Source: Tachypleus tridentatus (taxonomy: Eukaryota > Arthropoda > Merostomata > Xiphosura > Limulidae). From it: 64,000 nt of DNA. The DNA is taken from positions 47,559,094 to 47,623,093 of the forward strand of contig NC_134830.1 in NCBI RefSeq assembly GCF_004210375.1. Direction: 5' to 3'. Positions within the stretch are counted from its first letter, which is position 1; each line of letters starts with the position of its first letter. Both the position numbers and the translations under genes were made by a program. The notes under the pieces were generated by a model. It searched no databases. It worked only from the letters and a program-made list of their open reading frames with translations, and had not been told where the DNA came from. Positions 2,565 to 51,482 of this stretch are shown one piece after another.

Positions 2565-2743
2565 TTACTTACCTGCTTCATATTTCCAGTGATTCTGGAG
2601 TTTATTAAACATGTCTGTATTATGTACACAACTGGCAATACCCACCATTAGCTGTTGCATTTTTGTTTTAGGGATGTCTGGGTGGCAACAAAAATCTCGG
2701 AGCTTCTTAAGTAGTTGGTTCTTTGTGTTATACAGGCACTTGT
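2565..2743 (-). CDS. GTDC1: QTMAN exon 7 (C-terminal)
   Basis: The exon follows acceptor TTCTTAG and begins AC, completing Asp with the G from exon 6. It encodes [26 protein letters not shown] and then a weakly conserved tail, matching the end of human GTDC1. The frame closes with a TAA at 2567-2565, giving a protein of expected length. A perfect donor (CAG|GTAAGT) sits at 2573/2572, three codons before the stop. Splicing to a further 3' exon is therefore possible; none was recognised downstream. Confidence 0.85.
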
Positions 2744-5700
2744 CTAAGAAGATAAAATCACTTCAAATATTTAACAAAAACTGTACACAAAACATCTTGT
2801 TCTAACAAGAATAACTTGCTCATTCACTGTTTTCTCTGAATAATTAACAGGATAAGTTGGTGTTGAAAAATATAAAATGTTAAAACTCATGTATTCCATT
2901 AGTATGAACTCCTCCTCATTGATTTTGATAATTCCTTTATATAGTTCTAGTTTACTAAACACAACAGCTACACCACCAGCTAATAAATGTCAGAATATGT
3001 GAAAGAAATCAACAAACATTGTGACTGGCATTAAAATATCTGCTAAATATCATAACCAACACTGAAAAAAAATATATTTTACTTAAACTAAATGTACACA
3101 TAAGCAAAGAACTGATACTAGAGCTTTCTGATAAGTAAGGAATGTTACAATTTACCAACAGAATGCAGTCCAAAGAGCATGAAATGTGAAAAAGAAAATT
3201 AGTGTGTAAAGTTAAAAACCCCACATTTCTATTATTTATATCTATATTAAAGAAATCCAGACAGAGGTTTATCCTAGACACAGTACAGTTTTATAAAACA
3301 GGATGCAGCTGGTGGTTAATATTTAGTTTTAGGTAGAAAAATAAATGTACCAACATTTCTTAAGATGAGTCAGTTCATCCAACAACCATCCAGTACATGA
3401 TAATTTTTCTTATACATGTCAACAAGTGTATGAGAATTATCATGGTACTACTTACCTGGAAAAATTTCAGGATACACAAGTTGTCGAGGAGCTAAAGGAT
3501 AGCAACCACAGAAAGCAGCCTCAAGCCTGGAAAACAAACAAATCACACAATATCATGTACTGTCAAATACAGGAATTAACAAAGAATCCTCACAGTAACA
3601 ATACCATGTAGTGTCAGATACTGGTATTAAACAAAGAATCATCACAATAACAATACCATGTACTAATGTATAGTTTCTAAGAAAGAAATATCAAACTGCC
3701 ACTACTATTGTAGTAAACTTATGGTATCCACAGAACAAAATTATATAAAAATGCTAACATTTCAAAACAACTTATTACATGACTTTCTTCAGAATAACAG
3801 GCTCAGTGAAAGAAAAATGGAAGCACTCGTAATTGTTAACCAAGAACCTAACCTGAACAATCAATTAGTTATGTCACTATATCTGAAACTATGATCAACT
3901 TAACAATATGTATTAATGTGTAAACAAACAAAAAACTTGTCTGATTCAGAAAGGCTGTCATTCTAGCTTTCATGAAGGTATACTTTACTAAAATAAACAC
4001 TTACATATAGTTTCATGGTTAATTAAACAGAATATCTAGAGAGAATTAACAAGTCTTCTATTCAATACTACCTGTCTGTTTACTTGTTCCAGCTAAACAT
4101 ATTCATAAGTTGGAACTATTCTTAAAAACTGAAAAATAGCTTATTGCCATACATGGCTACTCCAAAAAATTCATGTCGAGCTGTCGAGATGACAACATCT
4201 GCAGATCTCAGAACTGAGAAATAAGCATCTTTAGAATCCTGGTGACCCCAGTGCTTGATGTTGTCCTTTAGAGAATCCTGTGCTACTTGGAAGATATCTG
4301 AAAATGTTAGTTTATCTTCTTTAGGTAACATATTTTGAAAGTAGTAATGATAGACTAATTTTATATAGATTCTTAAAGGTTTAGAATCTTTCAAAACAAA
4401 TTTCAATCCTTTTAGTTTTTCAACTTTATACTAGTTTTTAATAATTATTAGAAAAAAAACTGTATACTACATATTAACTTAAAATATTGTGTATTTGTAG
4501 AAATAAGTTGCTATAAGTTGTTATAAAATATTCATACTTTGTGTTATTAAGTAGAATGATTGACAGAAACAAAACAAGTTATGTTAATAATTTAGTTTAC
4601 ACATTCAGTGAGGTTGTTTCAAAAGCATTAGACAAGTCTACAGTCTGGAAATTCAACTGTAGTGTCACTTTGTTAATCATGGAGTAGCAACAGCAAAAAT
4701 AATTCTAACTTGTTTTGATCTTCATATGAACAAGCAGTAAATACCTCATCATCAAAATGTAAGAGTTACTCACTGAGGATCAGAACTAAATAACACAAAA
4801 CAGAAGGCAATCATCATCAATGAAAATCATTACTAAATAATATAAAACAGGTAATGTCCAGAAAAAACTACTAAAGACAATAAAACAGAAAACTGTTCAA
4901 CAAGGTAATACCTGGGACGCTACAGAAATGCTCAGCAATGTAATACCTAGGACACTACAAAACTGTTCAACAATGTAATACTTGGGACACTACAAAACTG
5001 TTCAACAAGGTCATACCTGGGACACTACAAAACTGTTCAACAAGGTCATACCTGGGACACTACAAAACTGTTCAACAACGTCATACCTGGGACACTACAA
5101 AACTGTTCAACTAGGTCACACCTGGGACACTACAAATCTGTTCAATATAATACTGGGACACTATAAAACTGTTCAACAAGGTAATACCTGGGACACTACA
5201 AAACTGTTCAACTAGGTCACACCTGGGACACTACAAAACTGTTCAATATAATACCTGGGACACTACAAAACTGTTCAACAATGTAATACCTGGTACACTA
5301 GAGAACTGTTCACCAATGACTGATAGTACGAATGGCAAATTATCCTTGTGGAGTTGGAAAATTACATCAAAAAATTCTTCTGGTCCTTTGTCATGTTCCC
5401 TAGAAAATAACATAGTCTGAATGATCACTTTGTAGACATATAAACATATGTTGTTACAATAAACACAATAGTAGATTCAAGTGACACATTACTGAGTCAG
5501 CCATTGTAAACTGATATATACATAACATTTATATATATAAATATAAGAAAGAGGCTATTCTTTATATTAGTAATACTATTTAGAAATGTTTATGAGTCTC
5601 CTGTCAGTACTGTTAATATACCTTTTATAATTATACATCATATTATATCGACTCTTTCACAATTAGAGTAAACAGTAATTATCTATTGGGTTGAGGAATA

Positions 5701-8700
5701 ATTCGTGAGCGTTTTTTCAACTTAACAAAATATATTCATAAATGAAACGCTTTAGCAAAATATTTCATGTCATTTGGTAGATAATTTTTTGCTCTAATAG
5801 ATGGTGTGTTTGATTTTCATATGTCTTTAATTTTTGCTTTCATTTTCAGCTCATTAAATGGAATGTCAAATGGACAAAATCAAGCATTTTCGACACCATC
5901 TGCTTTTCGCATTTAATTTCTTGCAATTTCGTTTAAAACAATGCATACTATATACCTAGGTATTACATGAAAGAAAGTATCATAATAAATGTTTTGGGTG
6001 TAATGTGTTCATGCATTGAAGTATTGTATAGTCTTGCATGTAATGCTTGAATGAAATTATTTAAAAACGCTCACAAATTATTCCTTAACCTAATATTATT
6101 TATATATATATATATAAATATAAGGAGACTTTCTTTATATAAATAATACTATTTAGAAGTGCTTATGAGCCTCGTATCAGTATTATTACTATATCTTTGA
6201 TAATTATATAACAATATTATATTATATTAACACTTTCAGAATGAGAGAGAACACTAATTACACTATGTAACACAAATTTTGTTCCTAGATAGAATGTGTT
6301 ATTTCTTAATTGCTTATGTTGTAAAAGTACAGAAAATGGCCATTATTCCCTTTAAACTTTGCTTTTGTGATCTGGATAATGAAATTTAGAAATTAACCTA
6401 TTTTGTATGTAAAAACGGGTAAATTTGCACATTTTCATTTACATAAGGTCTGAATAAAACAACATATGAATCAAGATTTACATGTGTTTATACTAAAGTT
6501 ATACAAAAATGTTGAGAAGTGAGTAGTTTTTCGAGATTTGTGACTGTAATGTAAATCACTTTCACGTATCAGCCCCCAAATATAGTCTCACATCATGTTT
6601 TTATTATATGCTCCCAGGTCAGAAAAGCAAAGTTTGAAGAGAAAAATAGGTCTTTTCCATTTACTTTAGGTATAAGCAATTGGGAAATAACACTTTCTGC
6701 CCAAGAACAAGAAAAAGTAAAAATTTTGTTACATAGTGGTATCTATTATTTATATATATATAAATATATGTATAAGAAAGAGACTGTTCTTTGTATAGAT
6801 AATACTATTTAGAGATGTTTATGAGCCTCGTGTCAGTATTGTTACTATACCATTTATAATTATACAACCAGAGAGAACACTAATTTTCTATTATATATGT
6901 ATATAAATATAAGGAGACTCTTCTTTATATAAATAACACAATTTAGAAGTGTTTATAAGCCTCCTGTCAGTATTGTTACTGTACCTTTTATAATTATACA
7001 ACATCATATAACTCTTTCACAGTGAGCAAGAACAATAATTATTTATTTACACTGGGATGAAGACAATGATAAATTTTTATTTTTATTATGCAGCAAAACA
7101 TACGAACAAACGTAGTAACCCAGGCAGTTTAAAACATTCTTGATATCCTCCGTTACTCAGTTTAAAGTTTGGATGTCCTCAAAACTTATGTCCTCTGTGT
7201 TATATAATACAACGTTCACTTTTAAAGTGCATCAAATGTATCTAAACCTACCTTATGTGTGGCCATTTAATATAAAGTTCATTGTTCAAAGTGTTTCACA
7301 TGTACCAAAACCTATATTCTCCATGACTATATAATACAAAGTTCACTGCTTAAATTATATCCTATACATTCAAACAATCTTGTCTCCTGTATGACTATAT
7401 AATACAAAATACAGTGTTTGAAGTGTATCAAAACTCACCATCTGTGTGGCCATACAATATGGAGTTTTCTGCAACTAACAGTTTGCACGCCAGGACTTGT
7501 AACTACAGGCGTGTTGGAACAAGGGCTCACACTAACAGGTGTGTTAATGTGAAGGGCCACATTATTTGTTGTTTTAGAGCAGTCCTCATTGTTTGGTGTT
7601 TCAGAGAAAAGATCCCCATTTGTTAGCATACTGGAAAAAAAGATTCTCGTTTATTGATGTGTTAGCGTGAAAATCATCCAGCACAGTTTCAACTGTGTCT
7701 ACTTTTTGTTTCTTTGAACAACATTCTTTTCTATCTGAACAACATTCAAAGTTAGGATTTTCTTCTGGTAGACAGACAGTACCTGTGTCAATAACTTCAG
7801 AGTCATTATAAGGTATGTGTTTTTTACAAACACATGTAGATCCTTCACTACCATAAAGCATATTAGTGGACATTAGAGGAAAGTAAATCACTCGACATTT
7901 GTACTTCAGTTCCTCAGGTATCCCTTTAGGTCGATAATCAGGCATTTTATTGAAGAATGAAGAGATGGTGGCTAGAAATGAGTCTTGGTTGAATTTAGAA
8001 TTAAAAACAATAGTGTCTGCAACAAGACTGCAAAAAATATCACATAAATGATTTACATTAATAAGTTTAAATATAAGAATTTCCAAATACTTATTTCAAT
8101 AGTCATTAGAAAATATTAGATATTTTTTGAATAAAATCTTAAGTATAAAATTTACAATGCTAGCATGAAGTATCTGTATATGTACACAGTCTATATACAC
8201 AAGTAATATGTTATAATCTTTCTTTACAAACATGTTAATATGATTATTCTAAAGTGTCTGTTGGATTCTAATATTTTATTTAAGGAATAGGTTTTTTGAT
8301 GAGTGATGTAAGTAAACTTTCACTCTTTACTAAAGTTTCTTAATTTAGTGTTATATATGTAATGATCTTTAACCAAAAAGTAAAATATAATCACTAGTGT
8401 GTACCTGGTGACACTCCTAATACATATCTAACAACGACCACTAGTGTATACATGGTGACACTTCTAATATACTTAATACAACTGGTGTATACATGGTGAC
8501 ACTTCTAATATATCTAAGAGAAGCACTGACCAGTAATGAAAATTTGATAACACTTTTAACATATTTAAGACTGGCATTGACTACTAACATGTACCTTTTA
8601 AACTAGAGCTCAAAAATTTATATTTTTTGCAGATGATTTTGATGTATTCATCATAACAATAATGGTCAAATGTTATCTAAAATAAACACAATCCAGTTGT

Positions 8701-11700
8701 CTTCTTGTCAAATATAACAAGTAATTATTATATAATTATAACAAGTAACTATGATCAAAATATTTTACAGACAATGTTAAATGAAACACTGTTAAAAATA
8801 TTCAACACAAAATATATTCTAATGTTGATAAAGTGACAGTGTTATTTGTAACGGATAAAATAACAGTGAATACTATTACAATCTAAAATGAGAAGTTACA
8901 TTGTACATTCTTCACATACCATTTCAATGTCTACCTTAACATTGTTTCATTATCTTCAAATCCAGACACAATCCCATAAAATTATAGCACATAACAAGTT
9001 TTGCCCTTATAGCCTCCCCAGTTAAGAACCTACGTTGTAATAAGCTTAATGAGATTTTTTAGCGACTGACATATTCCTTTGAGAAAAACCAGTCTGTGTA
9101 GTTTGGGTTTGGTACTACATCAGCTATATTATAAGTAACATTAATTGTTTGGTTAAATTGTAATTAACTATATCTTCAGCAATTAAATGGAAAAATAGTT
9201 GTTCACTTTACACAATTATAGTATTGTTGCACAAGTAACACACTGTTTGCTGCACACAACAAACATCAACCATTACAACAACTTTTAGTCAAACAAAGAA
9301 CAAATAAATGATCTTCTTGGCTGTCTATATACAATTAAAATAACAAATACACCCATGTTTTATTTTTATGAGATAATTCTACATGTGAAAACAATGGTTT
9401 TTTTTAAACTTCTTTATTCCACATTATCATGCATACACTTTTAATCATTTTGTGTAACTTTGGAGTTCATAGGCTACTCACATTTTTAAGATGAGATATC
9501 CTTTCAGCCTAATTTCAAATGTTAATTACTAAAATATCCCATATTTAGAAAGCTGGAACTAGGCCTAAATTATACTTTATCTTCTCCAACATTTGTATAA
9601 CTTGTTACAAGTAAAGCCTCCTGTAGTTATGTCTTATGACAACAATTGTATGACAGGAAGCTATGAAGAAAGATGTTTTTAACATCTATCTCACTATTTT
9701 TATTTTGTATTGATTAAAGTTTAAATGATTTATGATCTGTATTAGACACATGCACCCACCACCAAGGTTATAAGTTTCACACAAGTATTTGTAACCACTG
9801 TAACAGACAACTTATATATCACTGTTAGAACTACCTTATAGTCTATTAACAATAGATCAAATACAAAATTTATCTTAATTTTAAAACTAAATACAAACAA
9901 AAGCTAAATAATAAATTAACTATTCAAACTTTGAACAACAAGTATAACATCATCTTTTTCTCTCAAGTTACTTCAAAAAAATAAAAGTAAAATCACAAAA
10001 TTAATTCACAGTGATAGTGTGCCAAACATACAAGTTTTTGGGAAATTTTGCTTTAATGTAACTGTAAAACTCCAGAAAGGTTAATTATGGTTTATATTTA
10101 TTACATTTGTGAAGGTTTAGTAAAACTAAAACTCCTGTAGAAGTTAAACATTTGTTATTCGAGAAATTTCAAGTATCTACAAATAGGGTACAGACTTAGA
10201 GATGTGTCATGTTATATGATAAATTTTAAAATTAAGTATTGTACTGTAAAATATAAATAGCTTACACTATTTTCTTATTGGTTGTATTCCTATCTTTCTA
10301 TTTACAGTTAAGTAAGTAAGTCCTTAAAAAACTCTTAATTACATGCATAACTTAAGGAGAGATTGTTTTAATAGGAAAAATGTCACAAGTTAATATTTGT
10401 CATTTACTCAAAGAAAATATTAATTATTAATTAGAACTTTATGATAAAGTTAACTAATCAATTACCTATTGACACCAGTTACATCACTTAAGTGTCATAT
10501 AATAATTATGAATTAAAATTATGATTAAACCGATATCATGAAAGTAACCAGTTAATAGAAATTAGTGTTTATGATTATTATTTTGAAATAATTCCAATTA
10601 TATATGTCGCATACAAATAATTGATGTAATTAATTTATGAGCCTTATGATTAAACAATCAGAAAAATTCACTAATTTCTATTGCTGAATAGTCTGTTTAT
10701 TTAACAGTGTGTATCAGATTTTACTAGACTTCACCACCAATAGTAACAATATGCAATACTTTTAATTATTTAACTATAGACATGGACCAATAACAGTTCA
10801 ACAATGTGTGATACCTTTAATTGTTTAGCTATAAACAAGGACCAATAACAGTCTAACAATATGCAACACTTTTAGTTGTTTAAGTATTTATACAAATAGA
10901 ACACCTGTTTAATTATTACCAGATCTTCCCAGTTAGGAAGCACTAAAACAGAAAACAAACAGCTGTTGATTATCATGTGCCATTTAAACAACACCCATTA
11001 CAGCGAGTTCTTTTATTTATTAGGTTTTCAGCATGTCTGTGTATTTTCACAATTGTTTTAAGCCTGTACTGTACTATGTAAACATACTAGTCATTTTAAT
11101 GTGTTACTTCTAAACTGCCATTTATGTCAGTGATTTATAATATTTTGTATGTTTACAAAATTATTAATCATTCAAGTTTTTCAAGTTGACAGATTTAGAA
11201 AGACACTGCAAGATATTGGTAATTAAAATTTTTGCACTGCCATGATTTTAATAGTATTAGTGCATTAAAGTTAGATATCCTAGTTTTTATAATAATGCTA
11301 TAACATTTTACAGAATTGAAGAAAAACAAAACAATTGTAATTTGTGATGATGATAAACCCACTTGAAGTAAAAACATATCTCAGGATGGCTAGTTTGGTA
11401 AGGTATTAACACTTTTACTAATAAAGCAGAGAACAACATTTCTACCTTCTTAGATCATCTTCAGGTTAACAAAGAAAGTTTGTTAATATCCATACCAACC
11501 ATCCTGAGCTATATATCAAGACAACTGTAGTTTCAAAAACTTCATTTATTCCCAATCACAGGTTCCCCAGTAAAGACATCATAAAGTGCATTCTGAAATG
11601 GTTTATAAACAGGTTTATATAAGTTCAACCGAAGAACCAGAAGTAACTTCAAGTAAAGTGGGGAGGACCTTCAGTTGGTTTGGTCATTTAGAACTTTTTC

Positions 11701-14700
11701 TGGATTTTCTTTTAGACTTCTGCTATTTATTTTTTTACCTTTTTCACAGATTTGTAGCATATTCTGGATGAAACTAGTGTTGTTTCTAAGGTGGGATGGA
11801 ATTGACCTCTCCATATCTTAAGAATGTCCTGTTTGCCCTATGTATACACTAATGCAGTCTTGACACATGAATTGGTAAACCTCACTGTTGTATTTTTTCA
11901 CTACTGCTACTTTTACTTGTATATAGAAACAAACTAGCCACAAAAAATTCCATTAGTTTTTACTCAAACCAAAACATGTTTCCTACCTAGAAACAATCTG
12001 ATTATATCCATACTGGAAATCCCTCTCTTTTTCCTTCTGAACTGGATACAGCAGCTGGTTTTCGTGGAAATAAAGTATTTTCTTTAGTGGCAGAAGATCA
12101 GGTCGCAGAGCCACCAGTTCTGCTAGATTGAGCACCGAACTCGCAAACAGCACTCTGAAGTAATTAAAGCACACAAGTTACTGACAGACATATACTGGAG
12201 ACTTTACTGTGAAACACAATAAATTTTTAAATCTAAATATGTTTCTTGATTATAAAAGTTGTTTCAAAGTATGCTACAATTAGGTATTGTCTAATTACTA
12301 CACTGTATGAATAATTATAAGCAGAAAATGATAAAGAAAATTCAGTTTTATATCCAAAACTCTTAAAGGTCACAAACACCAGGTTGTATCTTCTTTAAAT
12401 AGTAGAAAGAACAAATATCACAGAAAACCACATTAAAAAAAACAACAGCAACAAAAAAGAAAGCTTTGGTCTAATGTTTTGAAAATCTTTATAGCACAAT
12501 GTAACAAAAATAATACAGGTACTACATGACAGCATAATGCATTTTCATTGGATAAAGCCAGCATAAGTAAATAAATCAGTTAAAGGCAAAGACAGTGAGA
12601 AACATTCTAAACAAAGGAAAGTTAAAAAAATATGTATATGTACCTTAATCAGAATATTTAAAAACATCCCAATGTAAATCTTCTATGATTTCACTTTTTA
12701 TACAAACATCCCAATTTCTGGAATATTCTGCATAATAGATTCTAAACTTTCTGTAAGGGTACATAAGCACTTAAGTGAATTCTTCTATTTCATTTCACTT
12801 GAAACCATAATGGTGTATTATTAGAAACTGATACTGTAATGGTGTATTGTTACAAAGTGATGCTGTAATGGTGTATTGTTACAAAGTGTTGCTGTAATGT
12901 GTATTTTTACAAAGTGATACTGTAATAGCATATTATTACTAACAGATAGTGTGATGGTGTATTATTACATAGTGATACTGTAATAGCACATTACTACAAG
13001 TGAATGCTGCAATAGCATATTATTACAAAGTGATACTGTAATAGTGTATTATTACAGTTACAACAGAAAGTGTTCGTACCCCTGCGTCCCAAGTTGTTTT
13101 TTGCTCATAAATTAAAAAGTATCATGATTAGAATAATAGACGTATAATATATTATAAATATTATACTAACACACATCTACATAAATTTTTTGTAAATTAT
13201 ACAACAAATAAGCAGTTTATAGACAAATAACCAAAAATAGGAGGAGCAGAAAGTGTTCATACATTTCAGAACATGTGAAAAAAACTGATATTCCCATAAA
13301 AATTTTCAGTTTGGAGAACAAACTACATTATACCATTCCAGAACTAGACACTGGGTTCATAATTATTGGAATTTAGCCAGCAAAAAATTTACTTCTGGCA
13401 ATTTAGAGCCATTTCCATCATTATTTGCTTGGCCATCATGGTGAACAGGAAACAACTGTCCAGTGATTTAAAAAACTGAATTATTGTAAAATACAAGTCT
13501 CATGTGTCTCTTTCCGGTATTGCTACATAACTTAATGTGCCAAAATCTACTGTTCAAAGCATAATTGCCAAGTTTAAGCTCACAGGGTCAACTGCTAACC
13601 TCCCTTGTTCTGGACACCCCACCAAAATTCCAGAGAGAACCGAGAGGAAGGTTTTTATAGAAGTTAGTTGGAACCCTCGTTTAACACATAATGACATACA
13701 GAAACTTGTAAGAGAAACTGGGGTTGAAGTAAGCACCTCTACAGTTACGAACATGTTATGCTCTTCTGGGTTCAAAGCATGCCATTCTCGTAGGACTCCA
13801 TATTTAAAGCCTGTTCATTTAGAAGCATGATTGTGGTATGCAAGAAAGCATGTAGATAAACCTTTTACCTATTGGAAGAGTATTCTTTGGTCAGACAAGA
13901 CTAAAATCGAGCTTTTTGGCCACAATGATTTTCGCTATATTTTCTGTAAGAAGGGGGAATGAAATTTTCCAAAGAACACTGTCCCTACAGTTAAACACGG
14001 AGGTGGTTTAATTATGCTATGGGGTTCCTTCAGCTATTCTGGTGTAGGCAGCCTTCACTGTGTCAACAGAATCATGAAAAAAGAAGTGTACATTGATATA
14101 TTAAGCACTTATATCAAGAATGATGCTCGGAACCTGAGGCTTGGGCATTGTTGGATCTTCCAGCACAACAATGACCATGAGCATACATCAAAATATGTGC
14201 AATCCTGGTTGCAGAGGAACCATATAAGCATTCTGGAGTGGCCATCGCAGTTACCACATCTCAACCCAATTGAAAACGTTTGGCATGAGTTGAAGACCAG
14301 AGTTCATCAGCATCATCCAAAATACTTGCAAGAGTTGGAGCCTTCTGTAAAGAAGAATGGAAGAAAATACCAGTCGAGTACTGTCAAACAATCATGGACA
14401 GTTATTAGGAGAGATTGCGCCAAGTAATTCACCTGAAAGGCTACACAAGTGACCATTAAAGTAGACGCATGAACACTTTCTGCCCCTCCTATGTTTGGTT
14501 ATTTGTTTATAAACAGTTTATTTGTCATCAATTTACATAAAAATTTATGTAGATGTGTGTTAGTATAATATTTATAATACACCATACTGTCATTATCCTA
14601 ATCATGATACTTTTTAAGTTATGAGGAAAAAAACTACTCATGTCGCAGGGGTATGAACACTTTCTGTTGTAATTGTACATAGTGATACTGTAATAGCATA

Positions 14701-26610: not shown

Positions 26611-29600
26611 CTGTTGTTAAAATGAAATAACACAGGAAAGTAAGTAAAGTATGTTGTGCTGCCAAAATAACCTGCAGGACACTGTGTCTTATTAACAGGA
26701 GTATGAAACCTTTATCTGGCAGAAAAACAGAAGTAGTTTTTACGGAGATTTATCAAAATTGGTATATTGATATATATTTATAAACCACAATTACATGTCA
26801 CATCTAGTCTAAATATAAACCACACATGCATAGTTATTGAATAAATCCATCTCACTTTGGATCTAAATAGTTGCACACGTTTACGTGAGCTACCGGTGTG
26901 AAATACTTACTACAGCTTTACCTAAGAGTAGAAGTAGACCATTTTTAGTTTATCGTTACTCGAATAAAAGACTTTGATATGGAACAGCAAAATTATAGAG
27001 TGAAAGCATGTGCGGATACATAAGTACTGGTTAGGCCAAGCAAACTAGATAAACAGTTTCTAGCTCTAAGTTTCAAAATAATCACACAAGTAAACAATTA
27101 TTATAAATTATTTGTTGCAAACTGTTCAGCTTAAATTTGTTAAATTTTATAATATTCTCCTAATAAAAAATTGTTTCGTGTTTCCTGATATTAGTTTCAG
27201 CTAGTTAGCCAAACTGTGTATCTTGTTATACCCACCATCATGTTTTATTAGTTAGCCAAACTGTGTATCTTGTTATACCTACCATCATGTCCTATTAGTT
27301 AACCAGGCTGTGTATCTTGTTATACTCACCATCATGTCCTATTAGTTAACCAGGCTGTGTATCTTGTTATACCCACCATCATGTCCTATTAGTTAACCAG
27401 GCTGTGTATCTTGTTATACCCACCATCATATCCTATTAGTTAGCCAAACTGTGTATCTTGTTATACCCACCATCATGTCCTATTAGTTAACCAGGCTGTG
27501 TATCTTGTTATACCCACCATCATGTCCTATTAATTAGCCAAACTGTGTATCTTGTTATACCCACCATCATGTCCTATTAGTTAACCAGGCTGTGTATCTT
27601 GTCATACCCACCATCATGTCCTATTAGTTAACCAGGCTGTGTATCTTGTTATACCCACCATCATGTCCTATTAGTTAACCAGGCTGTGTATCTTGTTATA
27701 CTCACCATCATGTCCTATTAGTTAACCAGGCTGTGTATCTTGTTATACCCACCATCATGTCCTATTAGTTAACCAGGCTGTGTATCTTGTTATACCCACC
27801 ATCATGTCCTATTAATTAGCCAAACTGTGTATCTTGTTATACTCACCATCATGTCCTATTAGTTAACCAGGCTGTGTATCTTGTTATACCCACCATCATG
27901 TCCTACTAGTTAACCAGGCTGTGTATCTTGTTATACCCACCATCATGTCCTATTAGTTAGCCAAACTGTGTATCTTGTTATACCCACCACCATGTCCTAT
28001 TAGTTAACCAGGCTGTGTATCTTGTTATACCCACCATCATGTCCTATTAATTAGCCAAACTGTGTATCTTGTTATACTCACCATCATGTCCTATTAGTTA
28101 ACCAGGCTGTGTATCTTGTTATACCCACCATCATGTCCTATTACTTAACCAGGCTGTGTATTTTGTTATACCCACCATCATGTCCTATTAGTTAACCAGG
28201 CTGTGTGTCTTGTTATACCCACCGTCATGTCCTATTAGTTAACCAGGCTGTGTGTCTTGTTATACTCACCATCGTGTCCCATCAGTTAGTCAGACTGTGT
28301 GTCATCTTGTACCCACCATCACGTCCCATTAGTTAGCCAGACGGTGTATCTTGTTATACCCACTATCACGTCCTATTAGTTAGCCAGGCTAAGTATCTTT
28401 TTTCACCCACCATCATGTCCCAGTTCGAACAACATACGCGGTCTCACTTGCTGTAATAATTCTTATCAATTCTGTAACTACCGGTTTGATGCCAACTATA
28501 ATTTACGTTAAGTTGCACAGTTAATCTTTTTTTGGCCGTACCTTTTTATTTCGCACCTAAAGTGTTTTTGATTAGTTATCATTTGATATAACATTAACAA
28601 AGTAAGGGAAACTACATATCACCTGGTAAAATATCACCAAAGTACATACCATGATATAACATCAATAAAGTACATACCATGACATAGCATCTACAACATA
28701 CATATAATGACGTAACATCAACAAAATACATATCACTAAACAGTAACATAAAGAAATGTTATTTAATTAACTTCAACACAGTAAAGGAAACAAAGTTCTT
28801 AGAGTAAGTCACCAATCCTGAATAACAGATTATATATACATATTCGTGTATGTAATATTTATCATAGCTAGTCATGTTGTTTACTAAAATATTGTTCTGT
28901 TTATACTGTTATTACCATTATACCACAGTAGTATAATATTTAACTGAAACTGGGTGGCTCAGCGTTAAGCCTAATGGATTAATTAGAATGTAGTGATTGA
29001 TCCCTGTGAGAAACAGAGTAGCTTCGTACTATATAAAAACAAATAACTTTAAACGTTGGCTAATTATTGTTGATAACATGAAAATAATTACTGTTTATGT
29101 TTTCTACCTTTTCTGAAATCTCACTACTGGATCCCGTAAGAGGTCGCTACAGTCAACCGTACGTCCTTTTTCTCGTACGTCAGGGTGCTTTTTACACATG
29201 AGCCAGCCCATATGTGCAAAAAAAAAACCTCGGTTGACGTTGTGAGGGTCTGCATCAGTCTCCGAAAACTTGTGGTGCACACGATGATCTCTTGACCACT
29301 CGTAAAGATCGTTCTGTTGAAGACACGAAATGTATTCTCAGGATGATGATATGAAACTTTAATTATAATAGAGTACAAAAGAACGTTTCCACCTTCTTAT
29401 GTCTTCTTTAGGTTAACAAAGAAAGTCTGCACAGGAAATCTTTTTAATTGAATTTTCTATCTGGAATGAAGTAATAAGTGTAGATCACAATGGGTATTTC
29501 ACACAGGTTTCATAATTAACCTAACAGGTTTGTACAGAAGAGTCTACTCTAAAATATTTGAATACACGAGGAATACATGTGAACTTCTAATTGAGGTTAA

Positions 29601-32600
29601 TGGAAGTAAATGAAAGTAATTCCCTCCAACACGATGATTATAATAAAGTAGATTATTAGACAGGATACACATGTCTGACAGTCAACAGTTAACACAGCAT
29701 ACTACACAGACATAAGTTTGTCACGATGAACAGTTAACAGAGTAAAATGCATTGACATAATATAAGTTTGTCAAAATCAACAGTTACAGTAGACTGCACA
29801 GACATGATATAACGTTCTCATAGTCATCAGTTAACACAGTACACTACATAAACATGATATACGTTTGTCATGATTAAGGGTTAACACAGTGAACAACACT
29901 GACATGATATAAGTTTGTCATAGTCAACAGTTATCACAGTAGACTACATAGACATAATATAAGTTTGTCATAATCAACAATTAACAAAATAGACTAGATA
30001 GACATAAGTTTGTCGTAATCAACAGTTAACAAAGTAGACTACATAGACATAAGTTTGTCGTGATGAACAGTTAACACAGAAGACCACATAGAAATGATTT
30101 AAGTTTGCATTGGCAACAATTAACACAGTAGACTATGTAGATATGACATCAGTCTGTCATTATGAACAGATAACACAGTAGACTACATAGACATGATATA
30201 AATTTGTCATAGTCAAAAGTAAACACAGTAGACTGCATAGACATGATAAAGGTTTGCCATGATGAACAGTTAACAGAGTAGACTAATTGGACATGATGTA
30301 AGCTTGTCATAGTCAACAGTAAACACAGTAGACTACACAGACATTATATAAATTTGTAATGCTGAAGAGTTAACACGGTAGACTACACAGGCGTGATATA
30401 AGTTTGTCATTATGAACAGTTAACAGAGTAGACTAATTAGACATGATTTAAGCTTGTCATAGCCAACAGTAAACACAATAGACTACACAGACATGATATA
30501 ATTTTGTCATAGTCAACAGAAAACACAGTATACTACACAGACATTATATAAGTTTGTCATGATGAAGAGTTAACACAGTAAACTACACAGACATGATATA
30601 AGTTTGTCACAGTCAACAGTTACCAAATAATACTACGTAACAACACATAAGTTGGTCATGATGAACAGATAACACACTAAACTACACAGACATGATATAA
30701 CTTTCTCATAATAAACAGTTAAGACAGTAGACTACATAGACATAAGTTTGTCATTATGAACAGTTAACAGAGTGGACTACATAGACATGATATAAGTTTG
30801 CCATAGTCAACAGTTAACACAGTAGACTACATTGGCATGATATAAGTTTGTTATAGTCAACAGTTAACACAGGAGAATACGTAGACATGATATAAGTTTG
30901 ACATGATGAACAGATAACACAGTAGACTACACAGACATAAGTTTTTCATAGTCAACAATTAACACAGTAGACTACATAGACAGAAATTTGTGATGATGAA
31001 CAGTTAACACAGTACACTACATACATATGATATAAGTTTGTCATGATGAACAGTTAACAGAGTAGAGTAATTAGACATGATGTGAGCTTGTCAGAGTCAA
31101 CAGTAAACACAGTAGACTACACAGACAGTATATAAGTTTGTCATGATGAAGAGTTAACACAGTAACTACACTGACATGACATAAGTTTCTCACAACAGAC
31201 AGTTATCACAGGAGACTACATAGACATGATATAAGTTTGCCATAGTCAAGAGTTAACACAGTGGACTACATTGGCATGATATAAGTTTTTCACAGTCAAC
31301 AGTTAATACACTAGACAACACAGACATAAGTTTGTAATGATGAACAGTTGACACAATAGACTACATAGACATAAGTTTATGATGATGAACAGTTAACACA
31401 ATAAATTACATAGACATAAATTTGTGATGATGAACAGTTAACACAGTACACTACATACATATGATATAAGTTTGTCATGATGAACAGTTAACAGAGTAGA
31501 CTAATTAGACACGATGTAAGCTTGTCAGAGTCAACAGTAAACACAGTAGACTACACAGACAGTATATAAGTTTGTCATGATGAAGAGTTAACACAGTAAC
31601 TACACTGACATGACATAAGTTTCTCACAATAGACAGTTATCACAGTAGATTACATGGACATGATATAAGTTTGTGATGATGAACAGTTAACACAGTAGAC
31701 TACATAGACACGATATGAGTTTGTCACAGTCAACAGTAAACATAATAGACTGCATAGACATGATGCAAGTTTATCATAATCAAGAGTTAACACAGTAGAC
31801 TACATAGACATACGTTTGTCATGATGAACAGATAACACAGTAGACTACATCGACATACATTTGTCATGATGAACAGTAAACACAGTAGACTACATAGAGA
31901 TAAGTTTGTCATGATGAACAAATAACACAGTAGACTATACAGACATAAGTTTTTCATAGTCAACAGTTAACACAATAGACTACATAGACATAAGTTTGTG
32001 ATGATGAACAGTTAACACAATAGACTACATAGAAACGGTAGAAGTTTGTGATGATGAACCGATAACACAGTAGACTACAGAGACATAAGTTTGTGATAGT
32101 CAGTAGTTAACACAATAGACTACATTGACATGATATAAGTGTGTCATAGTCAACAGTTAACACAGGAGTCTACGTAGACATGATATAAGTTTGTCATGTC
32201 AACAGTTAACATAGGAGACTACGTAGACATGATATAAGTTTGTCATAGTCAAGAGTTAGCTCAGTAAATTACACAGACAAGTGTGCCAAGGTCAACAGTT
32301 AAGTTAATAGACTACGTAGACTCGATACAAGTGTGTCAAGGTCAAATGTTAACTCAGCCGACTACGTAGACACGATATAAGTGTATTATGGTCAACAAAT
32401 AACTTTTTTATTTAATACACGACACGTTATTAAAATGACAGATATATTAAAGTGATAAGTTTAGAGACTTTGTGATAATGTCCTAATTTAATGGTATAAC
32501 CAGCAATTTTCTACTATGTTTGAAAACTTAAACCATACTAGCGAGGCTAGGAACAATGATTATATTATTATAAATGGTTTAGCTAGAAAATTCACTCAGG

Positions 32601-36760: not shown

Positions 36761-37489
36761 TCAATATATAATTTAGTGCTGTTTTTTTCTAGTTGCCTTA
36801 CGTGACATGAAGGGTTTAAGATATTGTCATGTCTTTTGCAACTTCTATTTTGTTCGTTGCTTTTAACTGACTTGTAAGATTTTTTTATTACAGTAAGTGA
36901 AAGTAGATTGCAAACATCTTAAAAGACAAGATAATTTCTGAAAACTCAAAGCACGAGTAACTACTTAAAGTCAGTAAATGTAGGCAATTTCATTTGATAA
37001 CCAGACGTTGGTAAAAGCAGGTTACTACATGTGAACACGTAAGGTCAATAAATGAAAAATTTTGTAGATGGAACAAATATGGGACAATTCAGATGAAAAT
37101 GTGATGCTAATATCAAGATATACAGTCATAAACCGTCATATACCTGTTTAAGTTCAAACTACCTATATTAAACGTCACATTAAAAAAAAAATATACAGAG
37201 AAAAGTAAAAACTGAAATTTAAATATCACATGTCATTTGAAACTTCATGCAAGAAAATAATAATTTCACGCAAGTACTTTATTTATTACCAACGAAAGAT
37301 GCCACTATCACCTGGTTTCATATCCTTACTTAATAGGTTCATGTTGTCAGTTATCACATGATTAATATCATTACCACTGTTTCACGCTGTTGGTCTTCAT
37401 TATCGTACGTGCTACTATTCAACAGTTTCAGACTATTCTTTATCAGTCAATAACGTATCCAGTGACCAAGCATTACTGGTTACTAACAA

Positions 37490-40400
37490 AACAGCATATT
37501 ATTAATCATAGGGTGGGTTACAGTCATATTAGATATTATAATTAACATTATTGGCTACTAATGTAGCTATATATTGTTATTCATAGTGTGGGTTAAGGCC
37601 GTACTAAATATTATAATTAACATTCTCGGTGACTAACATAACTATATATCATTATTCCCAGCATGGTTTACTGTTATAGTAGATATTATAATTAACATTA
37701 TTGGCTAGTATTATAACTAGTTATCATTATTCATCGTGTGGGTTACGGTCACACAAGATATTATAATCAACATTATTGACTACTAACATAAATATATATC
37801 ATTATTCACAGTGTGGGTTACGGTCATACTGATATTATACTTAACATTATTAGCTAATAATGTAATTATATATCACAATTACACTAGATATTATAATTAA
37901 CACCCTCTTCTACTAACAAAACTAGATATTTTCACAGTGTGGGTTACGATAATTCTAGGTATTGTAATTAACATCATTGGCTACTAACATAATTTTACAT
38001 CATTATTCGCAGTGTGGGTGACGAATATACTAGTACTATAATTCACATCATTGGCTACTAACATATCTGTATATCATTATTCATAATGAGGGTTACGCTC
38101 GTACAACACTTTACAAATACATTATTGGCTACTCACATAACTGCATATCATTTTTCCTAGGGTGGGTTATGGTCATATATGATTTTACAAATAACATAAT
38201 TGGCTACACACGTAACTAGATATCATTATTCACAGTGTATGTAACAGTCATACTAGACATTATAATTAACATTATTGGCTACTAACAGAGCTATATATCA
38301 TTATTAAAAGTGGGAGTTACGTTTATACTATGTATTCTAATTAACATCATGGGTAACTAACATAACTATATATCATTATTCACTGCGTGGGTTACGGTCA
38401 TACCAGATATTATATTTAATATTAATAGCTACTATTATATATACCTATTATTATTCACAGTGTGTGTTTTTGTAATATTACATACAATAATTAACATTAT
38501 TGGCTAATAACATAACTATACATGATTATTTTTAGTGTGGGTTATGGTCATACTAGATATTGTAATTAACGTTGTTAACAACAAATATAACTATATATCA
38601 TTATTCAGATTGCTGGTTATGGTCATACAAAATATTATAATTAACATCATTGGCTACTATCATAACTATACATCATTGTTCACAGTGTCGGTGACCACAG
38701 TATTAGATATTTTAATTCACAATATTGGCTACTAACATAATTATATATAATTGTTCACAGTGTGGGTAACGTTCATACTAGATATTATAAGTTACATCAC
38801 TGGCTACTAACATACTTAGTTATCTTTATTCACAATGTGGTTTACGGCTATACTGCATATTATAATTAACATTATTGGCTAGTCACATATATAGATATTA
38901 TTCACAGTGTGGGTTACGGACATACTAGATATTATAATTAATATCATTAAAGACTAACATAACTATATATCATTATTGAAAATGTGAGTTACCGCCATAA
39001 TAGGTATTATAATTCACATCATTGGCTACCAACACAACAATATATCATTAATCAATATGTGGGTGTTTGTCATATTAGATATTATAATTACGGTTACACT
39101 AGATATTATAATTAACACCCTTTTCTATTAACAAAACTAGATATTTTCACAGTGTGGGTTACGATAATTCTAGGTATTGTAATTAACATCATTGGCTACT
39201 AACATAACTTTACATCATTATTCACAGTGTGGGTAACGAATATACTAGTACTATAATTCACATCATTGGCTAATAACATAACTATATGTCACTATTCACA
39301 GTGTGAGTTACGGTCATACTACATATTATAATCAACATTATTGGCTAGTAACATAACAATATATATAACATTATTGAAGTGTGTGCTACATTATAGGCTA
39401 CTAACATAACTATATATCACTATATACTGTGGGGGTTACGGTGATACTTGATATTATAATTAACATCATAGATTATTAAGATAACTACATTTCATTATTC
39501 ACAGTGTGTGTTACGGACATACTAGATATTAAAATTAGAATTATTGTCGACTAACATAACTATATATCATTATTAACAGTGTGGGTTTTTCTCATACTAG
39601 ATATTATAATTAACATTACTGGCCAATAATATAACTGTATATTATTATACATAATTTATATTGTGGTCATAGTAGATATTATAATTAATATTATTGACTA
39701 CTAATATAGTTATTTATAATTATTCAAAGTGTTGGTTACTGTAATACTAGCTATTATAGTTAGCATTAATGGCTACTAACATAACTGCATATCATTATTC
39801 ACAGTGTGGTTTACAGTCATAATAGGTGTTGTTATATCATAGGCTACTAACATAACTATATACCATTATTAACAGTGGGTGTTACGATCATTATAGAGTT
39901 TATAATTAACGTTATTGGCTTCTAATATAACTATATCTCATTATTCATAGTATGGGCTATGATGATGCTAGGTATTATAATTGACCATATTGGTTAATAA
40001 CATAACTAGATATCATTATTCAAAGAGTGGGTAATGGTCATATTAGATATTACAATTAACTTCATTTGCTAGTAACATAACTAGATATCATTATTCACAG
40101 TGTTGGTTTCGGTCATTCTAGGTATTATAATTAACATCATTGACTTCTAGTATATCTAAATGTCATTATTCACAGTGCGTGTTGCGATAATACTAGATAT
40201 TATATTTAACAGGATTGGTTCCTGACATAAATATATATCATTATTAGTAGTGTCAGTTTGGGTCATACCAGATATTATAATTAATATTATCAGTTACTAA
40301 CATAACTGGGTATCATCATTCACAGTGTGGGTTAAGGTCATACCTGATATTATACTTCACGTCATAGACTACTAACATAACTATATGTCATTATTCCTAG

Positions 40401-41589
40401 TATGGTTTACTGTTATAGTAGATATTATATTTAACATTATTGGCTAGTATTATAACTAGTTATTATTATTCGCAGTTTGTGTTACGGTCATACCAGATAT
40501 TATAATTAACATTATTGGCTACTTACGTAAATAGATATCATAATTTATATTGTGGGTTACGGTCTTACTCGGTATTATATTTAAAATTATTACCTACTAA
40601 CGAACCTCATATCATTATTCACATTGTGGGTTAGGGTTATTCTATATATTACAATTATTATTAATAGGTAATAACATATGTGCATATCATTATCCACAGT
40701 GCGAGTTTTTGTCATACTTGATATTATAATTAAGATTATTCGCTAATAACATAAATATCTGCCTCCCCTAGAACAGCGGTATGTCTACGGATTTACAACG
40801 CTAAAATTAGGGGTTTGATTCCCCTCGGTGGGCTCAGCAGATAGCCCGATTTGGCTTTGCTATAAGAAAACATACACACACATAAGTATATATCATTATT
40901 CGCAGTGTGTGTTATGGTCATACTAGATATTATAACCATATCATTGGCTAATAACATAACTTTATATCATTATTCACAGTGTTGGTTTACAGTCATACTA
41001 TATATTGTAATTAACGTTATTGGCTAATAACATAACCATATATTATTATTCAAAGTGTTGATTACGGTCATTATAAATATTATAATTAACATGATATGCC
41101 ACTAACATAATTATATATCATTATTCACAGTGTGGGTTACGGTCATACTAGATATTATAATTAACATCATAGGCTACTAAAATAATTACTGTGAGGGTGA
41201 CGGTCATAATAAATATTATAAATAACATTATTTGTCAAATAAAATAACTATACATCATTATTCACAGTGTGTGTTATGGTCATAGAAAATATTATAATTG
41301 GTATTATTGACTACTAACATAACTATATACCAAGTTTACAGTGAGACTTACAGTCTCACTAGATTCTATAATTAACATTATTGACTACTAAAATAAACAT
41401 ATATCATTACTGAAAGCATGGGTTACAATCAAACTAGGTATTATAATCAACATCATAACTATGATAAATGTATATCATTATTCACTGTGTGGGTTACGGT
41501 CATACTAGATGATATAATTAGTATTATTAGTTATTAATATAACCGCATATCATTTTTCATGGTGAGGGTTTTTTGTAATACTATATATA
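37490..41589. repeat. About 75-bp minisatellite, about 54 units
   Basis: Units are variants of CATTATTCACAGTGTGGGTT, ACGGTCATACTAGATATTAT, AATTAACATTATTGGCTACT and AACATAACTATATAT. Divergence is moderate throughout, so the array is old. Higher-order copying is visible (37860-38060 resembles 39085-39270). It is interrupted by a SINE at 40761 and a Tc1 element at 41590. Confidence 0.93.
40761..40885 (+). mobile_element. tRNA-derived SINE, family C
   Basis: GCCTCCCCTAGAACAGCGG (A-box region), GGGGTTTGATTCCCCTCGG (B box), body GGCTCAGCAGATAGCCCGAT and an ACACACAC tail. Inserted in the 75-bp minisatellite. Confidence 0.8.
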
Positions 41590-42744
41590 CTCTTCAAAAC
41601 AAGAAACGCAAAAGGGATATTTTTGTTATTTTAAAGAGAAATATATGTAATAACGTTACAAGCTCAGAGTATGTGATGTTACACGTGTTAAGGCACTGAT
41701 TGTCAGACAAAATGACAATAAAAGTTGTGCACTTTGAAAACGGAGGAAAACATCGGATTTTTCGCCAAAACGCATGCGTGTCCAATAAATTTGTTTGAGA
41801 GGTCTGCATGTTCTGCAAGTGCAACATGTGCAAAATCCCTATAAAAGTGACGGGTTCTTGGTTTTCATAGCTCAGTGTTAAGCCACCGACACGCAATAAA
41901 GTTACGCCAAGACTGACTGAAGCACAACGCAACAACGCCATTGGTCGTTTGGAAGCAGGCGAATCTCGATCAGATGTTGCCAGAGCTGTGAATGTCCACC
42001 CAAGCACCATCACAAGGCTATGAAATCGTCACCAATAACATGGATCAACTCGTGACCGTCCACGATCTGGCAGACCTCGTGTGACCACTCCCGCACAAGA
42101 TCGCAACATCCGGTTACGTCACCTTCGGGATAGGACCACCACTACGACGTCTACTGCCTCAACTATACCAGGGCTGCGTAGGATTTCCGATCAGACCGTA
42201 CGCAACCGTCTACGAGATTCTTAGGCCCCATGTGCAATCCATCATGGTGAACATCAACGATGCTTTTCAACATGACAACGCCCGTCCTCACACAGCCCAA
42301 CTCACCACTGTCTTCTTGAGACACCACAACATTAACGTTCTTCCCTGGCCCTCCAGATCATCAGATTTAAACCCCATCAAACATCTTTGGGACGAGTTGG
42401 ACCGACTTCTGCAACGGCGACAACCTCAACCGCAGACTCTACCTCAGCTTGCAGCAGCTTTGCAGGCTGAGTGGACAGCCATTCCACAGGATGTGATTCG
42501 TCATCTCATCGCTTCCATGGGCAAGAGATGCCAAGCAGTTATTGATGCTCACGGGGGGCATACTCGTTATTGACGTTGAGTGACGTTAAACTTCACCTAG
42601 TGAGCGTGGACTTCGCCTTTGCAGACTTTGGATGTTCAGCAGTGAATGTGCAAAGGTTAACACATGTCATACAGAACTACACGGAATAAACTTGTTAACA
42701 ATTTGTCTCATATTTTGCCTTTTGCGTTTCTTTTTTTGAAGAGC
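41590..42744 (+). mobile_element. Tc1-like transposon, internally deleted
   Basis: Inverted ends CTCTTCAAAACAAGAAACGC on the left and, in reverse, CTCTTCAAAAAAAGAAACGC on the right, in TA-rich flanks. The plus strand keeps the DNA-binding part (RLTEAQRNNAIGRLEAGESR, then VARAVNVHPSTITRL) with stops. It then jumps to the catalytic C-terminal half 42232-42573 (FQHDNARPHTAQL, DLNPIKHLWDELDRLL). The region with the first catalytic Asp is deleted, and the catalytic Glu of NPIEHLW reads Lys. Non-autonomous and catalytically dead. It lies at the boundary of two minisatellites. Confidence 0.88.
42232..42573 (+). pseudogene. C-terminal part of Tc1-like transposase
   Basis: 113 codons encoding the second catalytic Asp block (HDNARPHTA) through the C-terminus (GKRCQAVIDAHGGHTRY). 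The third catalytic residue is Lys instead of Glu. It is a remnant of the deleted element at 41590-42744. Confidence 0.8.
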
Positions 42745-45027: not shown

Positions 45028-45999
45028 CACCCTTGTGCAAATTAATTGAAACAAATGGTCATTTTACAATACTTTTAGCATGGCAGCCGGTGTAGGCTCG
45101 CTGGACCCGCTGATTTCCTTTAATAGTCATTTTTTCACACAAACGGCCTCATTAGCTGTGTTTTTCAGTAGGATCTATTTTTGGGATATATGACGAAATT
45201 TTGAGGAATTTTACGTCATTCGAAATTGCGTTAGAAGAACAAGAAGACCAGTCAAAAAACAACTTCTTACCAATTCAATGAAGAAAAAACGGTATCAATG
45301 GGGTCTGAAATACAAGAACTGGACGCAAGAACAATGAGTGACGAGACTCATTTCTTCGTACAGGGTCAAAGAAGTCTGCATATTCGCAGATCTCCAGGTG
45401 AGAAATTTCGAGAATCTCACATCAATCAGTTCGTAAAATATCCCTTGAAACAGATGTTTTGGGGCTTTTTCAGCTACTATAGTGTCGGAGGCTTATATAT
45501 CGTAGAAGGTATGATGCGAGGACCACAGTACATCAAAGCTTTGCAGAGAAGAGTCGTTCCAGAATTGAAAAAGAGATTTCCAGATAGATCTGGCATTTTT
45601 CAGCAAGATCTGGCTTCGTGCCACACATCGAAACTTGTGAAGAATTTTATGACTACAACGCGAATAAAGGTGCTGGACTGGCCTGGAAACTCCCCGGACT
45701 TAAATCCTATTGAAAATCTTTGGGCGATTTGTAAAGAAAGACTTCGGGGAAAAGATTGTACTACGAAAGATAAGCTAATTGAGGCCATAATTGAGGTGTG
45801 GTACCGCGATCCAAAAATTTATAAAGATTGCAGTCAACTCGTGGACTCGATGCCAAAGCAGATTAATGATCTTCTAAACATAAAGGCAGTCATATCATGT
45901 GTTAATTTGTGAGTAATTTTTGGATTCTCAGAAATAAAACGCAAAAAATTGAAAAAATCGTAATTTTCCGTCTTATTTCAATTAATTTGCACAAGGGTG
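45028..45999 (+). mobile_element. Tc1-like transposon, 5' deleted, catalytic half intact
   Basis: 972 bp with inverted ends CACCCTTGTGCAAATTAATT (TGAAA follows) and the exact inverse at the right, TA at 45026-45027 and 46000-46001. The DNA-binding half of the transposase is missing. One open frame spans the catalytic half. Ends match well, suggesting a fairly young copy. Confidence 0.93.
45298..45912 (+). CDS. Catalytic-domain-only Tc1-like transposase fragment
   Basis: 204 codons with no stop. The DDE triad is present: Asp in MSDETHFFVQG, Asp in IFQQDLASCHTSK and Glu in DLNPIENLW, with the usual spacing of about 34 residues between the last two. GFFSYYSVGGL is the conserved strand before the second Asp. 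The N-terminal HTH region is absent, so self-directed transposition is unlikely. The start ATG at 45298 is only the first Met in frame, and expression is unproven. Confidence 0.75.
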   Translation: MGSEIQELDARTMSDETHFFVQGQRSLHIRRSPGEKFRESHINQFVKYPLKQMFWGFFSYYSVGGLYIVEGMMRGPQYIKALQRRVVPELKKRFPDRSGIFQQDLASCHTSKLVKNFMTTTRIKVLDWPGNSPDLNPIENLWAICKERLRGKDCTTKDKLIEAIIEVWYRDPKIYKDCSQLVDSMPKQINDLLNIKAVISCVNL

Positions 46000-50576: not shown

Positions 50577-51482
50577 CGAGGTCTGTTAAAAAATACGCGG
50601 ACTGTTTGAATTGCGCGGCTCCAGTTGGTTCCAGGGGAATTCGCTTGGTGTCGCTAGGTTCGCACAGATCAGCTGATTACGACGCCATTTCCCGATTGCA
50701 AATATCTTCATTTGTGTATTAGCTACGCGGTTTTAAATGAAGTGCGATTTTTTTCGTTTGGCGGATTTCAGAATGAATGACCTGAAGGAGCAACGACTTG
50801 CTGTGAAATTTTTTGTTAAACTTGGAAAATCTGCGACTGAAACTTTTGCTGTGCTTAACACGGCTTACGGTGATGTTGCTATGAAGCGTACGGCATGTTT
50901 CAAGTGGCATGAACGTTTTAAGGATGGTCGACAGTCCATTGAAGATGATGAGCGTCCTGGACGTCCTTCCACGTCAACTGACGACACACACGTTGACAAA
51001 ATCAACACCCTGGTGCGGGCAAATCGACGTCTGGCTGTCGGGGAGTTTGCTGAAGAGTGTGGGATATCAGTTGGATCTTGTTACGAGATTTTGACCGAAA
51101 AATTGAAGATGCACCGCGTTGCTGCGAAATTTGTGCCTCAGAACTCGTGCGTTTTTGGCCAAACACTCAATCACTGTTCTTCCCTACCCCCCTACTCACC
51201 TGACCTTGCTACTTGCGATTTTTTCTTGTTCCCCAAACTCAAAAGACCCTTGAAAGGAAGAAGATTTGAGACGATTCCCGAGATTAAGGCAAATGCGACG
51301 AAGGAGCTGGAGGACATTACAAAAGAGGCGTACCAGGATTGTTTCAACAAGTGGAAACACCGTTGGGATAAGTGTGTGCGTTGGGGAGAAGAGTACTTTG
51401 AAGGGGTCCCAGACCTGTAACTTCAAAATAAAGTACATTTTGTTTTATGACGTCAGTTCGCGTATTTTTTGAACAGCTCTCG
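50577..51482 (+). mobile_element. Internally deleted mariner with exact empty-site evidence
   Basis: 906 bp; inverted ends CGAGGTCTGTTAAAAAATAC and, in reverse from the right, CGAGAGCTGTTCAAAAAATA; both continue CGCG. TA at 50575-50576 and 51483-51484. Removing the element and one TA restores CATATATACCTAC, the sequence present at the same place in the two uninterrupted 150-bp units. This is direct proof of a TA-targeted insertion after the repeat had amplified. Confidence 0.97.
50737..51420 (+). CDS. Mariner transposase derivative: DNA-binding region kept, catalytic core deleted
   Basis: 227 codons without a stop; the likely original start is the Met at 50773 (MNDLKEQRLAVKFFVKLGKS). Two HTH regions are visible (VKFFVKLGKSATETFAVLN and ISVGSCYEILTEKLKMHRVA) around a basic linker (DDERPGRPST). 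After KFVPQ the frame jumps to PPYSPDLATCDFFLFPKLKR, so the stretch with the first two catalytic Asp is missing while the frame is preserved. It retains LKGRRFETI and the C-terminus. Such a protein could bind element ends but not cut. Expression is unknown. Confidence 0.8.
   Translation: MKCDFFRLADFRMNDLKEQRLAVKFFVKLGKSATETFAVLNTAYGDVAMKRTACFKWHERFKDGRQSIEDDERPGRPSTSTDDTHVDKINTLVRANRRLAVGEFAEECGISVGSCYEILTEKLKMHRVAAKFVPQNSCVFGQTLNHCSSLPPYSPDLATCDFFLFPKLKRPLKGRRFETIPEIKANATKELEDITKEAYQDCFNKWKHRWDKCVRWGEEYFEGVPDL

Follow-up and report, generated by a model that had tools for sequence, protein, structure and literature searches.

Minisatellites composed of copies of an exon-intron boundary, known as mirages, have been described in lancelets (amphioxus), where they occur in the Adh3 gene and the globin genes BflGb6 and BflGb9 (PMC3087553) and in TnC, with similar repeats in PGBD5 (PMC3902484). 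In the passages of the first report that deal with Adh3 and the globins, the authors' data suggest no interference of the mirages with regular splicing, and length instability is reported (PMC3087553). The Adh and TnC mirages generate no aberrant mRNAs according to the portion of the second report that treats them (PMC3902484). A related arrangement is found in intron 7 of the human coagulation factor VII gene (F7), which carries a variable number of 37-bp repeats. As stated in the sections of that report cited here, the normal choice is the most upstream donor alone, by oriented scanning, and a mutation at +5 of the first repeat leads to exon skipping and to the use of downstream cryptic donors (PMC6627357). 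In addition, two further reports describe how introns are gained when sequence bearing a splice site is duplicated in tandem, in the potato RdRp gene (PMC4974935) and in human internal tandem repeats (PMC2812944).

Examination of a window of 64,000 nucleotides from Tachypleus tridentatus (contig NC_134830.1, positions 47,559,094 to 47,623,093; the window is the whole stretch of DNA that was analysed) revealed an array of this general kind at the end of an exon of QTMAN, a gene coding for tRNA-queuosine mannosyltransferase and also called GTDC1. Six exons of QTMAN, here called A to F, lie on the minus strand of the window:

12154-11987, minus strand: exon A, Pfam QTMAN_N match (E 1.3e-21)
8027-7439, minus strand: exon B, Pfam QTMAN_N match (E 1.1e-16)
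5399-5290, minus strand: exon C, 110 nt, from its open frame and splice sites (counted as exon 4 in the initial annotation)
4297-4153, minus strand: exon D, with the acceptor ATTTTCAG/ATATCT
3526-3456, minus strand: exon E, downstream of the array
2743-2573, minus strand: exon F, downstream of the array

A slash marks the junction. Exon C begins after the acceptor TTTTCTAG/GGAACA and ends at the donor TACCAG/GTATTA at 5290/5289, its 3' end reading ...GTGTACCAG/GTATTAC. A Pfam search with seven single QTMAN fragments identified two as QTMAN_N, and the other five, including those from exons C-F, fell below every family cut-off. The joined exons C-F match bacterial loci encoding a relative, the best 80 of 83 of which were retained. 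Comparison with solved structures gave one weak match (E 0.018), of which no use was made. In exon B the reading frame shifts near a T run at window positions 7604-7650, as a result of either a small indel, an assembly error or an intron. A separate minisatellite occupies 3547-3664 on the intron side of exon E, 21 bases from the acceptor end at 3526. A related block (..TTCTTTATATAAATAATACTATTTAGAAGTG..GAGCCTC..) was seen by eye four times in the intron upstream of exon C, at 5550-5620, 6120-6190, 6780-6840 and 6910-6980.

TRF reports a single array at 4889-5316, with a period of 35, 12.4 copies, 87% matches and a score of 611. It begins within the last 28 bases of exon C and extends about 400 bp into the intron, and its repeat unit spans the exon-intron boundary, with 28 exonic and 7 intronic bases. 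Splitting the units on the minus strand gave the following features:

5290-5317, minus strand: exonic founder segment of 28 nt, encoding I-G-E-Q-F-S-S-V-P and the first base of the following codon, identical to the unit at 24 of 28 bases
5283-5289, minus strand: the seven intronic bases of the founder unit (GTATTAC), which hold the authentic donor, from the unit split
4889-5289, minus strand: intronic minisatellite of 11 complete units of 31-35 nt and a partial unit
4911-5255, minus strand: eleven decoy junctions, with last 'exonic' bases at 5255, 5223, 5188, 5153, 5122, 5087, 5052, 5017, 4982, 4947 and 4912
5254-5188 and 5152-5087, minus strand: two copies of a two-unit block, identical in 65 of 67 columns
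5245-5243, minus strand: in-frame stop codon TGA of unit 2, at which all read-through products beyond +35 end, from translation of the decoy products

Nine of the intronic units are 35 nt long, one is 32 and one is 31, and the partial one stands at 4911. Identity among the array units is 87% on average (range 74-100%), the distal unit at 4946-4912 seeming by eye the most divergent. The repeated two-unit block is, on its alignment, the trace of a duplication within the array, as expected of ordinary minisatellite turnover. The minisatellite at the exon end and donor that the initial annotation had reported is therefore real, both TRF and the unit split recovering it with its 11 decoy junctions, and the acceptor given for the next exon, at 4298/4297, is correct. 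Two details were revised. The tandem copying of exon end and donor stood, while the unit, thought to be 34-35 bp with about 22 exonic bases, is 35 bp with 28 exonic and 7 intronic ones. The real junction had been called the last unit of the array, which holds in plus-strand coordinates; in the order of transcription 5290/5289 is the first. Concealment of the decoys by RNA structure was considered and rejected, since folding of the array RNA is no more favourable than that of shuffled versions (z -0.56, with 31 of 100 shuffles as good).

By the features tested, we file the QTMAN array as a clear further example of a mirage minisatellite, a kind already known. As in lancelets, minisatellite-like tandem copies of the boundary adjoin the authentic boundary, AG/GT is present in many copies but not in all (9 of 11 here), and there are signs of turnover within the array. 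The unit length is different, being 35 bp here against the 10-72 bp and 150-160 bp that the lancelet accounts give, where they describe the repeats, for Adh3 and the globins, respectively. The setting also differs, here the QTMAN gene in a 2.17-Gb genome, and normal splicing and length instability are reported for the lancelet arrays. Lancelet genomes are far smaller than 2.17 Gb. With F7 intron 7 the array has in common a near-identical unit length (35 versus 37 bp) and an authentic donor in the first repeat, followed by homologous copies. The genes themselves are unrelated, QTMAN being identified by Pfam QTMAN_N, so that the two are alike in architecture and not by common descent. Moreover, the use of the first donor and its failure after a +5 change come from experiment in F7, whereas the authentic QTMAN donor is already without a G at +5. 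Finally, tandem copying of sequence that bears a splice site is shared with the cases of intron gain, from which the QTMAN array differs in giving no sign of a copy turned into a splice site of its own or of a created intron.

Several observations bear on the origin of the array. The last 28 bases of exon C have a best ungapped match to the unit of 24 of 28, a value reached by none of 20,000 shuffles on both strands (maximum 20, mean 13.0), and 28-base windows of the other five QTMAN exons give only 15-17 matches on the same strand. The 16-base core of the unit, TTTTGTAGTGTCCCAG, has eight exact matches in the 2.17-Gb genome, six of them in the array and two elsewhere, with one match in the reversed control. 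Since the core is nearly confined to the locus, the array grew locally. The direction of copying can be read from the bacterial homologues (the best 80 of 83). None of the 80 has extra residues at the exon C/D junction or up to four residues away from it, and in the segment that resembles the repeat they have G in 80 of 80, P in 78 of 80 and F or Y between them in 76 of 80. The segment was thus coding before the array existed, which makes the exon the source and the array the copy, and the absence of an insertion makes the first donor the coding junction. Where the register is clear, the intronic units carry GTT or GCT in place of the glycine codon GGT. Copying from exon to intron and seeding by the exon donor, as had been proposed for exon 4 from the start, are well supported by the 24/28 match, by a core with only two matches elsewhere in 2.17 Gb and by the coding exon end in the 80 homologues.

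It is hardly credible, and was already disfavoured, that an unrelated intronic minisatellite resembles the exon end by chance or that a mobile satellite landed there. The genome is full of arrays, and one with a 35-bp period on C8 has about 18 bases in common with the unit; against this stand a match of 24/28 in register at the junction, where shuffles reach at most 20, an exon copy directly contiguous with the array and a core that is not dispersed. A dispersed repeat as the source was likewise rejected, as the five array matches outside the locus fall in only two places, both arrays of other units. These have a period of 32 on C6 and of 35 on C8. In the latter (L008 3025-3603, G000 C8) the stretch of about 18 bases common to the QTMAN unit is AGTTTTGTAGTGTC-CAG. 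A search of the genome with the exon C-F protein revealed no retrocopy of the QTMAN mRNA; seven candidates were scored, and the only matches were the four exons at this locus.

As to mechanism, we propose that a first duplication of the 35-bp boundary block was followed by expansion through slippage or unequal exchange. The expansion would have gone into the intron, where additional copies may be tolerated.

The decoy junctions read CCCAG/GTATTA in three cases, CCCAG/GTATGA in three, CCCAG/GTGTGA in two, and CCTAG/GTATTA and CCCAA/GTATTA in one each; at 5153 the G of GT is lost in register. AG/GT is thus kept in nine of the eleven, one of the others having A at -1 and one lacking the G of GT. 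The initial annotation had given most units as CCCAG/GTATTA or CCCAG/GTATGA, which is exact for six of eleven and, for AG/GT, true of nine. It had also supposed that use of a decoy adds multiples of about 34 nt and mostly breaks the frame. The predicted lengthening of the exon is 35, 67, 102, 137, 168, 203, 238, 273, 308, 343 or 378 nt, and the protein is indeed broken by all 11 decoys, ten of which meet the TGA at 5245-5243 while the +35 product is frameshifted. Four of the lengths are nevertheless multiples of 3, and there the break comes through the TGA.

The AG/GT of the units also raises the idea that each serves as a joint acceptor and donor, for stepwise removal of the intron by recursive splicing or for the birth of new introns. 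Tandem duplication of AGGT is a published route of intron gain, at least in the model outlined in PMC3087553 and in the part of PMC2812944 devoted to it. By eye, however, CCCAG is closely preceded by another AG (TAG) and has no long pyrimidine tract beside it, and we regard this reading as very improbable.

Donor strength was scored in two ways. On a weight matrix of human donor frequencies, the true exon C donor has 4.1, less than any of the other five QTMAN donors seen in the window (5.05-12.6). Five decoys (three CAG/GTATGA and two CAG/GTGTGA) stand above it at 8.05-8.17, three equal it and three are lower. The true donor has T at +5, and these five decoys have G. A score at least as high as that of the true donor is found at 11 of 99 intronic GT sites, namely eight decoys and three sites outside the array, and those three outscore it. 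By U1 duplex energy, computed with the 5' end of U1 and with RNA energies that ignore pseudouridine, none of the decoys is better than the true donor (-7.2 kcal/mol), six being equal to it and five weaker, and exon C has a stronger donor than exon D (-1.9). As to the existence of better decoys and as to which donor is the weakest, the two measures disagree; they agree that many decoys are not worse. Decoys scoring far below the true donor would, by the initial annotation, have refuted its splicing proposal; they do not score so low.

These scores are among the grounds for supposing that the array is leaky and regulatory, some transcripts being spliced from decoys and destroyed, so that copy number would set the level of functional QTMAN mRNA. 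Eight of the 11 decoys lie at or above the true donor on the matrix, where that donor is the lowest of six; all 11 break the frame; and downstream cryptic donors of F7 come into use once +5 of its first repeat is changed, the donor here being without the +5 G. On the other hand, lancelet mirages are reported with normal splicing and F7 normally uses the first donor only, the better-scoring +5G decoys have spread although strong competition should select against them, and none of the decoys is stronger than the true donor in U1 duplex energy. Most precedent disfavours tuning of QTMAN mRNA by the array, which we consider unlikely.

In another reading, the eleven donor-like copies would hold U1 snRNP at the exon edge, and exon inclusion would follow copy number. 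An exon can be included more readily when U1 binds downstream of it. The low matrix score of the true donor (4.1 against 5.05-12.6) and the keeping of AG/GT in nine of 11 copies would fit such a landing array, for which we see only a slim chance. The chance is as slim for a variant in which the copies help in exon definition or protect the intron against premature polyadenylation, and for the positional rule that, under U1 landing, would keep better-scoring decoys out of use. Against it, the weakest donor by U1 duplex energy is that of exon D (-1.9) and not the true one (-7.2); by eye the remainder of the unit seems as well kept as the donor bases; and GT is lost in one copy, and arrays are common in the genome. 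Were U1 landing nonetheless true, many donors of a minisatellite-dense genome could be buffered likewise.

The explanation that we consider probable is that the array is a near-neutral mirage minisatellite of which the first donor is used and the decoys are mostly silent. The spliceosome would pick the first copy at the exon edge through its position and exon context and not through the best score, the decoys would be used only occasionally, and such use would give a truncated frame that is removed by nonsense-mediated decay. Coding logic and precedent point to the first donor. The authentic boundary lies at one end of the cluster and yields the protein, as the C/D junction in 80 of 80 homologues (the best of 83) indicates, and since the F7 array normally uses only its most upstream donor, 5290 may be taken as the donor used here, with the decoys nearly silent. 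The +5G decoys look derived, since they differ from the donor itself, and they have spread to five units though every decoy breaks the frame, so that the decoys are probably not much used. If donors were chosen by strength, such a spread would be costly and many QTMAN transcripts would be wrecked; the alternative, choice by position, is favoured. The array would then be close to neutral, and its copy number probably varies between individuals.

Two points count against reliance on the first donor. It has no G at +5, and in F7 a +5 mutation activates downstream donors, which could apply here as well; and its matrix score is the lowest of the six. Furthermore, human exons with alternative 5' splice sites fall, in the portion of the study drawn on here, into two groups, one with the proximal and one with the distal site as the major one (PMC2423196), so that position alone is no general rule. 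A further point on this side is that, according to another study, novel introns may arise from tandem repeats that lie at the exon-intron boundaries of duplicated human genes (PMC2812944).

A near-neutral array is also in keeping with the abundance of such repeats. In the window, 32 merged arrays with a period of at least 9 cover 29.9% of the bases, and in the QTMAN stretch (2573-12154) arrays cover about 10%, so that a donor covered by an array is unsurprising. Very long minisatellites with units of 29-75 bp and lengths of 1.2-4 kb were seen at 59689-63148, 37471-41520, 29682-32404 and 27202-28420. Transposon fragments lie on the plus strand at 42085-42570, 45235-45912 and 50737-51420, with two DDE_3 domains and one Mos1-type HTH_48 domain.

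For comparison, 65 loci around protein-family matches were examined (30 of 125 kinase, 16 of 16 AMP-binding and 19 of 19 ABC matches, and none for WD40), a sample in which some loci have internal stops and not all have a donor. Arrays make up 6.4% of their bases and lie at most 150 bases from the match in four of the 65 (L107, L140, L148 and L158). In L158 (1502-2574; G000 C10, around 151009975), an ABC-transporter exon ending in CTCACA/GTAAGA has its donor spanned by a 62 bp x 14.9 array. The unit consists of the last 9 exonic and 53 intronic bases, and GTAAGA is kept in eight later copies. This appears to be a donor array of the same kind as that of QTMAN, in another gene of the same genome. 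In L140 the array begins roughly 80 bases into the intron. In L107 a minisatellite at 2164-2381 starts some ten bases ahead of a kinase gene's stop codon, and its unit includes a ACACTAAAGATG stretch.

A donor-spanning array thus occurs at one of six QTMAN donors and in one of the 65 loci (loci, not donors, being counted), with no excess over array density. The 29.9% cover of the window and the second donor array in another gene weigh against a special role for the QTMAN array. Across the genome, tandem donor triples number 3409 against 1419 in the reversed control for AGGTAAGT, 2032 against 923 for AGGTGAGT and 9305 against 8593 for AGGTATGT, figures that count places and not arrays and in which forward and reverse differ up to 2.5-fold. 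The single 8-mer AGGTAAGT occurs 92,449 times, against 81,715 reversed.

As a natural experiment, the QTMAN array is of some use for the study of donor choice. Downstream of a donor with a low matrix score and without a +5 G, the next 378 nt hold copies whose context hardly differs from that of the authentic one, five of them with a +5 G, which amounts to a natural competition test of 5' splice-site choice. If the first donor alone is used, in this animal as well position would prevail over site score; should decoys be used, the locus would be a natural counterpart of the F7 +5 mutant. Together with L158 as a second case, the array suggests that boundary-spanning minisatellites may be a by-product of repeat-rich genomes and not a peculiarity of lancelets.
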